Source: Sphingosinithalassobacter sp. CS137
Lineage (GTDB): Bacteria; Pseudomonadota; Alphaproteobacteria; Sphingomonadales; Sphingomonadaceae
Reading direction: 5' to 3'
DNA length: 64,000 bases
NCBI RefSeq assembly: GCF_014334115.1
Contig: NZ_CP060494.1
Coordinates: 248,001 to 312,000, forward strand
The notes beneath the pieces were generated by a model. It was not told the origin of the DNA. It saw only the letters and a list, made by a program, of their open reading frames with translations, and did no database searches. Below, piece by piece: positions 4,700 to 13,080 of the stretch (positions are counted from its first letter, which is position 1; each line of letters begins with the position of its first letter). The position numbers and the translations under genes are program-made.

Positions 4700-5163
4700 C
4701 ACTCATTCTCCCGAAGCTTCAGCTTGAATCCCTTGTGGCTCTGCTCCCAGCCGAGCCGCTCGTAGAAGCGATGCGCGTCGGTGCGGCTGTTCGACGAGGT
4801 GAGCTGCACCAGATAGCAGTCGCGCTCGCGGCAGCGCGCGACGGCCCAGTCGATCATCGCCGCGCCATAGCCGCGCCCACGGCAATGCTCGTCGATCCGC
4901 ACCGCCTCGATCTGCCCTCGCCATGCGCCGCGGAAAGAAAGACCGGGCAGGAAGCTGAGTTGCAGCGTGCCGATCACTGCGCCCTCCAGCTCGGCGACGA
5001 CGAGCAGCTGGTTCGGGTCGGCTTCGATCGCATCGAACGCGGCGGCGTAGCGCGGATCGTCGGGATCAGTCTCTCGGTCCGCGGGGATCGTGTCGGCGCG
5101 CAGCATCGCGAGGATCGCGTGCAGGTCGGCGCGGGTCGCGCGGCGGATCGCGAGTGTGCTCAT
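4699..5163 (-). CDS. GNAT-family N-acetyltransferase
   Basis: A 154-residue GCN5-related acetyltransferase. It carries the strand-4 segment [26 protein letters not shown], whose R-G-x-G-Y-G-A loop binds the pyrophosphate of acetyl-CoA, and ends with the usual [18 protein letters not shown] motif. The ATG overlaps the TGA of the oxidase gene (ATGA at 5160-5163), and its own stop overlaps the MaoC start, so the three genes form one operon. Substrate is unknown; similar short GNATs acetylate amino acids or small amines. Confidence 0.85.
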
Positions 5164-9212: not shown

Positions 9213-9698
9213 TCAGGCTCCTTGGGCGAGATCCTCCCCGGGACGGGGAGGGGGACCAGCCGCAGGCTGGTGGAGGGGGCGAGCCAGCAAGGCTGCGATC
9301 GATGCTGCCACGGCAGCAGGGTCGCGCAGCACCTCGGCGGCGGGATAGCGAAGGATGCGATAGCCGTTTTCGCAAAGGAAGGAGTCGCGGATTGCGTCAG
9401 ATCGGGTCCGTGTTCCGCGGTTATGTGCTTCACCATCGACTTCGACGATCAGCCGGTGCGCCACGCAGCAGAAGTCAGTGACGTACGGGCCGATCGGGTG
9501 TTGGCGGCGGAACTTCGCGCCGGTGCGTGCAGCGCGAAGATGCTCCCAGAGAAGCACCTCAGGAAGGGCGAGGGCGCGCCGCTGTCTGCGGGCGAGCGCG
9601 GTTTCAGGACGGATCGCGCGCGGCAGCCCCCCTCCACCACGCTTCGCGCGGTCCCCCTCCCCGTGCCGGGGAGGATCTTCGACGGCTTCCCCCCTCAC
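9213..9698 (-). CDS. DUF559 endonuclease-domain protein enclosed by inverted repeats
   Basis: A 161-codon frame. Residues 35-125 match DUF559, a PD-(D/E)XK-type nuclease domain related to very-short-patch-repair enzymes. It shows [27 protein letters not shown] with Asp75, [10 protein letters not shown] with Glu86-x-Asp88, and [23 protein letters not shown]. The first 25 and last 25 residues are translated from the two inverted repeat arms and are rich in Pro, Gly and Arg, so they are probably not part of the fold. The ATG at 9698 is formed by the Met-stop (ATGA) that ends mccB, so the true start is uncertain. The gene interrupts an operon whose other genes overlap, which suggests insertion. 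Confidence 0.75.
9229..9283 (+). repeat. Left arm of DUF559-flanking inverted repeat (family A)
   Basis: Contains GATCCTCCCCGGGACGGGGA followed by GGGGGACC, an inner palindrome CAGCCGCAGGCTG and TGGAGGGGGC. It is the inverted counterpart of the arm at 9625-9679 and overlaps the 3' end of the DUF559 frame. Confidence 0.8.
9625..9679 (-). repeat. Right arm of DUF559-flanking inverted repeat (family A)
   Basis: Read on the minus strand it begins GATCCTCCCCGGCACGGGGA, then GGGGGACC, an inner GCGCGAAGCGT segment and GGTGGAGGGGG, closely matching the left arm. It lies 15 bases past the mccB stop and is nearly identical to the right arm of the gene-less element at 12951-13080. Confidence 0.8.
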
Positions 9699-12944: not shown

Positions 12945-12950
12945 TCAGTT

Positions 12951-13080
12951 CCTCCCCGCTTGCGGGGAGGGGGACCGGCCGCAGGCCGGTGGAGGGGGTT
13001 GGCGGCAGGCGGAGTGCTTGGGGCTAGCCCCCTCCACCATGCTGCGCATGGTCCCCCTCCCCGTGCCGGGGAGGATCTTC
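12951..13080. repeat. Gene-less REPIN-like element (family A)
   Basis: Two inverted arms of about 50 bases with a 26-base centre. The left arm is CCTCCCCGCTTGCGGGGAGG, then GGGACC, the palindrome GGCCGCAGGCC and GGTGGAGGGGG. The right arm is CCCCCTCCACCATGCTGCGC, then ATGGTCCCCCTCC and CCGTGCCGGGGAGGATCTTC. Both match the arms around the DUF559 gene. The element fills the hmgA-Rieske gap, its right end overlapping the hmgA stop codon. Confidence 0.8.

Follow-up and report, generated by a model that had tools for sequence, protein, structure and literature searches.

Palindromic repeats are used for typing in bacteria and affect mRNA stability and genome plasticity. To our knowledge, the only enzyme tied to them is the RAYT transposase (tyrosine transposase associated with repetitive extragenic palindromes, REPs). 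Two studies describe the RAYT gene as sitting mostly at a fixed site, with its hairpin repeats scattered over the genome as inverted pairs (REPINs) and with more repeats in genomes that carry the gene (PMC8049555, PMC8266576). Here, we analyzed a stretch of 64,000 nucleotides (the window, contig positions 248,001-312,000) from the single-contig genome (3,194,162 bases) of Sphingosinithalassobacter sp. CS137, in which a gene for a DUF559 nuclease lies between two inverted, hairpin-forming arms. We consider it likely that this gene is the coding member of a two-part genomic replicator of the RAYT/REPIN kind, built around an unrelated enzyme. An earlier sequence-only reading had proposed that DUF559 relates to its repeats as RAYTs relate to REPINs, and enclosure by arms, repeat load and cognate gene-less pairs strongly support this relation, well beyond sphingomonads.

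Like RAYT genes, DUF559 genes mostly stay in one genomic place (the same in 45 of 50 close protein pairs), with scattered cognate inverted pairs and a higher repeat load in genomes that have the gene. They differ in that the enzyme belongs to PF04480 and is not a Y1/HUH transposase, that the gene sits inside the arm pair, and that one genome can hold several DUF559-arm families. In structure, the repeats themselves resemble REPINs, with two inverted hairpin REPs and a short spacer in the window and in genomes G005 and G113; in number they range from just four elements in the own genome to a large population in G005, where 400 kb contain about 40 arms. Unlike REPINs, those of the own genome have no RAYT to mobilize them: PF01797 (Y1_Tnp) gave no match in the own genome, ruling out a RAYT as a hidden partner, and among the 18 genomes tested (own included) it was without a match in 14 and matched in 4. 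The REP superfamilies tagged with GTAG or CGTC differ as well, since the window arms (the only arms read for this) carry neither tag.

The open reading frame at 9213-9698 matches PF04480 with E 2.7e-28 and 98.5 bits (curated cut-off 20.6) over residues 33-137. The features of the window are as follows, arms being read from outside to inside.

9213..9698, minus strand: DUF559 nuclease gene (PF04480), 161 aa, GTG start, frame ends translated from both arms
9288..9602 (contig 257288-257602), minus strand: DUF559 domain, by profile match
9229..9279, plus strand: left arm of the gene copy, family A, two tandem hairpins
9628..9678, minus strand: right arm of the gene copy, family A, two tandem hairpins
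12947..13078, no strand: gene-less REPIN-like element of arm family A, 132 bp, by sequence and folding
12947..12998, plus strand: left arm of the gene-less element
13028..13078, minus strand: right arm of the gene-less element, near-identical to the right arm of the gene copy

The arms around the gene are 51 nt each, 86% complementary and separated by 348 nt, which confirms the inverted arms of about 50 bases that the sequence-only reading had described. Translation of the open reading frame bore out its statement that both frame ends are read from the arms, and the gene-less two-arm element that it had placed 3.3 kb from the gene, with a near-identical right arm, was recovered at 12947-13078. 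Each arm of the gene copy folds into two tandem hairpins, and the gene-less element, folded as a whole, gives one long hairpin. A known RNA family was rejected as an explanation, as nothing between window positions 5000 and 15000 matched Rfam at the gathering threshold.

The exact core of the arms, GGGGAGGGGGACC, occurs eight times in the 3.19-Mb genome, arranged as four inverted pairs, and the reversed control pattern does not occur. Two of the four pairs contain DUF559 genes, namely the window gene behind mccB and a gene between glyQ and glyS, with an identical core-to-core span of 418 bp. Of this small four-element family, the window holds the mccB-side copy as one member with a gene and 12947-13078 as one without. 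Three DUF559 genes were found in the genome and all are enclosed, two by family A and one by another family. The arms of this third gene are 40 nt long and 93% complementary, and the window plus 400 kb sampled from the own genome yielded four further copies of them. The third gene (L001:1442-1921, corresponding to G000:C1 ~488465-488944) lies between a YqeY-like gene and dnaG, both named from reading their translations, and has an extra arm behind it.

We then scored enclosure across taxa by aligning the left flank locally with the reverse-complemented right flank and taking the best alignment, with a cut-off of 20; arms on one side only, as in E. coli, escape such a two-sided test. On this scale, the window element reaches 34. 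DUF559 was present in 219 of the 297 genomes of the order Sphingomonadales and in 97 of the 289 genomes of the class set. Arms enclose 55 of 73 top-scoring loci of the order (three own loci, the 30 best-scoring and 40 picked by hand from the list with their flanks unseen), compared with none of 260 shifted windows along these loci, the highest of which reached 14.5. When flanks were swapped between loci, 74 of 431 combinations reached the cut-off, a high value that arises because the arm families share a general form. Frequent flanking, which the sequence-only reading had named as a check, was accordingly found for high-scoring DUF559 genes.

The pattern recurs outside the order. Half of the 50 loci from the rest of the class were enclosed (20 loci hand-picked from the list with flanks unseen, the others mostly best-scoring; shifted windows 0/333), as were 44 of the 80 loci from named genomes (the best 80 of at least 538 matches, many from metagenome bins; shifted windows 4/3560) and 11 of 26 top phylum loci (shifted windows 3/208). 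The enclosed named loci include records titled Chloroflexi, Desulfobacterales and Gastranaerophilales, which are mostly metagenome bins. Of the 19 genes found behind mccB or between glyQ and glyS, 18 were enclosed (two are the own copies already counted), and the exception scored 18.5. Chance or base composition as the cause of the arms was ruled out by the shifted windows and the reversed-pattern controls.

These percentages are valid for high-scoring DUF559 only. In a lower-scoring set from the order (30 of 36 matches from 34 genomes selected because their best match scored low; E from 1.1e-25 to 5.4e-12), a single locus of 30 was enclosed; it has E 5e-23 and is among the three best-scoring, and none of the 27 loci with E above 1e-18 was enclosed. 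This excludes the idea that arms surround any DUF559 gene. The sequence-only reading had stated that it would fall if most DUF559 genes lacked such arms, which holds for the lower-scoring genes (29 of 30) and does not hold for the high-scoring ones of the order. The lower-scoring set, mostly single-copy, arm-less and spread over several genera, may represent a separate housekeeping subfamily.

Repeat load was counted with the palindrome pattern CCYTCYCCN{0,8}GGRGARGG, with the reversed pattern as control, and DUF559 was taken as high-scoring at an exponent of -20 or lower (E below 1e-19). In the order, genomes averaged 0.95 palindromes when they had no DUF559 (n = 78), 0.60 when they had only low-scoring DUF559 (n = 58) and 19.9 when they had high-scoring DUF559 (n = 161); the corresponding means for the reversed pattern were 0.33, 0.38 and 0.43. 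At least 10 palindromes were found in 78 of the 297 genomes, 77 of which have high-scoring DUF559. The trend was retained within genera, with 12 of the 14 genera that contain both kinds of genome in agreement and none of 1000 within-genus permutations reaching the observed value. The own genome scores only 3 palindromes because the pattern misses arm families A and B.

Beyond the order, the same co-variation was observed. Median counts in other Alphaproteobacteria (n = 123) were 47.5 with high-scoring DUF559 (52 genomes), 0 with none (62) and 2 with only low-scoring DUF559 (9); in other classes (n = 221) they were 39 (35 genomes), 0 (156) and 1 (30), respectively. The Spearman correlation between load and DUF559 amounted to 0.82 in other Alphaproteobacteria (control 0.17) and 0.55 in other classes (control -0.004). 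Four genomes without high-scoring DUF559 (G758, G863, G925 and G1012) carry 74-157 palindromes, and may have lost the partner or use another enzyme.

It could be argued that the association is passive, REP-like repeats landing in intergenic gaps where DUF559 genes happen to sit. Repeats are indeed common in these genomes, and 6 of 30 glyQ-glyS gaps hold other, partly repetitive DNA. We find this hardly credible, as every control run opposes it: the shifted windows of the order, class and named loci (0/260, 0/333 and 4/3560), the lower-scoring loci (1/30) and the within-genus permutations (0/1000).

Gene-less copies cognate to a particular gene were sought in 400-kb samples; that of G005 comprised 20 stretches, with the queried gene loci left out. 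The arms of locus L063 had 38 copies there, forming 14 inverted pairs, and those of L065 had 40 copies and 16 pairs, the two counts overlapping because the arms are alike. The arm copies occur mostly as such gene-less pairs, 98-124 bp long in the 14 listed. For L073 of G113, 15 arm copies and five gene-less inverted pairs were found, and for the other nine elements queried in G005, G113 and G033 there were 0-4 arm copies. At 42 bits, G005 arms had 47 matches in G005, 3 in G113 and 8 in G033; G113 arms had 13 in G113, 3 in G005 and 1 in G033; and G033 arms had 3 in G033, 2 in G005 and none in G113. Arms thus match their own genome strongly in the cases of G005 and G113 and weakly in that of G033, without being exclusive to it. 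Around 44 named loci, copies of a locus's own arms reached 0.175 per 10 kb versus 0.027 in other loci.

The arms are conserved as structures. Across the loci scanned, the inner hairpin of family-A arms exists in 31 distinct versions in which 166 of 172 cells are paired (counting G-T as a pair), whereas exchanging halves among arms gave a paired fraction of 0.73 on average and 0.83 at most. The hairpin is thus conserved while its letters change, that is, it varies by compensatory change. In 7 of 40 aligned homologues (P0020, P0026, P0062, P0102, P0114, P0115 and P0119, judged by eye) the arm DNA is read in a different frame, which rules out that the arms are selected as peptide and indicates that the DNA is what selection keeps. 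A different, more complex design was seen at L319, where a DUF559 gene is enclosed by near-perfect inverted arms of about 100 nt.

Arms and proteins co-vary. Arm similarity rises with protein identity (Mantel test, 0/500), and within one genome the median arm match is 34.2 in the same element versus 16 for the best match between elements (22 pairs). Close protein pairs were at the same genomic site in 45 of 50 cases, the pairs not being independent, and in the remaining five, at different sites, the arms are still alike (0.64-0.92). Both arms can also change together around a gene that stays in place: the arms of L015 have a similarity of 0.13 to those of L019 and of 0.32 to those of L040. The ratio dN/dS was 0.07-0.19 in 7 of 12 pairs, and dS was saturated in the other five. 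The DUF559 gene is mostly at fixed sites and under purifying selection.

The term "self-mobile element" used in the sequence-only reading is only partly apt: the gene is mostly constant in site and shows no sign of target-site duplications, which is true of RAYTs as well, but the phylogeny indicates that it is not permanently fixed. In a tree of 41 hand-chosen domains, all 20 that carry family-A arms group in a single starred clade, and the glyQ-glyS copy of the own genome branches as sister to the window copy (99/87). Approximately unbiased (AU) tests, run on genomic-site groups after the tree had been seen, rejected a single clade for the 16 mccB-site copies (p 0.00013) and did not reject one for the three glyQ-glyS copies (p 0.061). 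The sisterhood observed would follow either from relocation of the gene or from conversion between the two own loci. The DUF559 gene has changed site or been overwritten at least once, by one route or the other, and "REP-associated nuclease" fits better as a name.

Sites without the gene were examined in 30 genomes for each locus. Behind mccB, a DUF559 gene is present in 16 of 30 genomes, in the same orientation in 7 of them and inverted in 9 (one query, L013, was read in the wrong frame). The gap behind mccB (L117-L146) appears to be a hotspot, and some other genomes show seemingly gene-less or broken repeat elements there. Clean empty sites, proposed earlier as a check, were evident in the glyQ-glyS gap, where the two genes overlap in 8 genomes and are 2-23 bp apart in 11; the remaining gaps hold a DUF559 element (3), a gene-less family-A-like element (2, by eye) or other, partly repetitive DNA (6). 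At the mccB-NTF2 site the check succeeded only in part: in L139 (1 of 30) NTF2 starts about 24 bp behind mccB, and in L120, L133 and L140 mccA follows within 53 bp. The glyQ-glyS gaps of L098, L105 and L106 contain an unrelated, mutually similar 120-bp stretch with the hairpin GCTCCTGCGGAAGCAGGAGC or a close variant of it.

These data bear on the possibility of a minimal insertion sequence, with the arms as terminal inverted repeats, the DUF559 protein as transposase and the gene-less pairs as miniature inverted-repeat transposable elements (MITEs). A gene between inverted arms, clean empty sites, mccB-site copies that do not form one clade and the presence of both orientations would all suit it, although arm-to-arm recombination could flip the gene and explain the orientations as well. 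Target-site duplication, the other hallmark, left no sign in 68 elements: the mean longest direct match was 3.24 versus 3.28 in shuffled data, and 207 of 300 shuffles reached the observed value. A classical insertion sequence was rejected on this ground. Among the elements compared there are also no near-identical multicopy genes, the highest protein identity (0.90) belonging to a same-site pair, and sites are mostly shared. Relatives of the window protein occur in just 32 of 72,556 plasmid records, where they always span less than 80% of its length, and a relative of the third own DUF559 protein was found in 1 of 50,697 phage records. Overall, we regard the minimal insertion sequence as quite improbable.

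The enzyme itself is probably a nuclease of the PD-(D/E)XK, Vsr-like kind. D75, E86, D88, G89, H92 and D101 do not vary among 40 homologues, and among solved relatives the profile matched 3hrl, an endonuclease-like protein (1.8e-24), and 3r3p, a mobile intron protein (3.4e-5). The invariant D75, E86, D88 and H92 are the likeness to Vsr and Vsr-like endonucleases. Vsr nicks DNA strand-specifically where a T:G mismatch lies within a methylated motif, and the DUF559 protein differs in being tied to hairpin repeats. The 3r3p relative is presumably a nuclease that spreads by break repair; its likeness to the window enzyme lies in the profile match, and the difference in that the window enzyme sits in hairpin repeats, with no intron or intein seen there. 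A defence system was rejected, as the best PADLOC match, DpdF, was weak (E 0.013 and 0.0036). The sole NCBIfam model matched was PRK09767, under its cut-off.

An alternative is maintenance without spread, in which the protein is a Vsr-like host repair or hairpin-processing enzyme, the repeats are tolerated or mismatch-corrected and build up wherever the enzyme occurs, and the arms arise from local conversion. One study reports that Caulobacter cells lacking a methyltransferase depend on a DUF559 protein for their response to DNA damage (PMC12907096); among the open-licence literature matches listed, no other in-vivo activity for the family was found. Fixed sites and purifying selection agree with maintenance, and so do the two own family-A loci, which are more alike in their arms (Smith-Waterman score 57.5) than the 62% identity of their proteins suggests. 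Maintenance alone does not account for the gene's position within the repeat at many unrelated sites, with mostly element-specific arms (34.2 versus 16), or for the many gene-less pairs that are cognate to single loci. We hold it to be unlikely.

For the replicator, a nuclease gene inside a hairpin repeat, in a pairing that recurs in many bacteria, implies that the enzyme probably helps palindromic repeats persist or spread. Its cognate repeats would be hairpin-forming palindromes, present as scattered short inverted pairs of about 100-130 bp and as the arm pair around the nuclease gene. The nuclease may recognize the folded arm and nick or cut at or near it; copying or gene conversion from the break would then duplicate and homogenize the repeats. 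The nuclease gene itself would move rarely, carried between two arms. What the data show is the enclosure and its recurrence across taxa, gene-less copies that match the arms of some genes, a repeat load that co-varies with the gene, selection on protein and hairpins, and at least one change of site; the biochemistry is inferred.

Several observations weigh against the replicator reading. Arms remained below the cut-off at 18 of 73 loci of the order, 25 of 50 of the class, 36 of 80 of the named genomes and 15 of 26 of the phylum, and four genomes of family f176 (loci L312, L315, L316 and L322) have a high-scoring DUF559 gene without two-sided arms alongside 18-225 palindromes. Family A comprises only four elements in the own genome, and just 3 of the 12 queried elements exceeded four arm copies in the 400-kb samples. 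Matches also cross genomes: at 42 bits, own-genome arms had 8 in G005, 6 in G113 and 3 in G033, against 5 in the 64-kb window. The enrichment of own-arm copies around the 44 named loci stems from six of them. As to repeat load, part of it consists of the DUF559 arms themselves, and once four palindromes are deducted for every DUF559 gene, just 64 of the 161 high-scoring genomes of the order retain an excess. Fewer than five palindromes were counted in 70 of these 161 genomes, with a pattern that misses some arm families, and in 12 of 87 high-scoring genomes outside the order. Conversely, at least 10 palindromes without high-scoring DUF559 occur in one genome of the order and in 19 (8 + 11) outside it, with up to 157. 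The correlation of load with DUF559 does not fix the direction of cause. Finally, one filled glyQ-glyS gap (L112) is flanked on either side by CTGTGA, as judged by eye, which is what a target duplication would produce.

As to generality, we are inclined to think that DUF559 nucleases constitute a second, RAYT-independent class of repeat-propagating enzymes, with an own hairpin family per copy, in several phyla and including E. coli YcjD with its neighbouring repeat. Full-text searches of open-licence papers listed no match tying DUF559 to REP-type repeats, and DUF559 together with REPIN gave no match in that literature. If the proposal is correct, a second, unrelated enzyme family would offer a testable origin for many repeats in RAYT-less genomes and may explain a large share of bacterial palindromic repeats without a known partner. 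It would also assign a function to a widespread domain of unknown function and provide an independent case of a gene and a within-genome repeat population persisting together. The ycjD/repeat pair makes the model directly testable in a laboratory strain.

In E. coli K-12, ycjD is annotated as DUF559, and we take YcjD to belong to PRK09767. An inverted pair (5217-5241/5396-5420 of L227, 80% complementary) lies at the 3' end of the gene, one of its arms overlapping ycjD. The likeness to the window is a DUF559 protein with an adjoining arm pair whose arm is repeated genome-wide, and the difference is that the E. coli pair stands beside the gene, the window pair enclosing it. Matches to the arm that overlaps ycjD number 95,443 (E limit 10) and come from 5,376 of the 5,426 E. 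coli genomes, the median being 19 per genome. A known E. coli repeat, box C, was first described near fabI/envM. A published table row for BoxC of E. coli gives 56 and 32, taken here as length and copy number (PMC2267715). The repeat beside ycjD is probably box C, as judged by length, copy number and the place of its first description.
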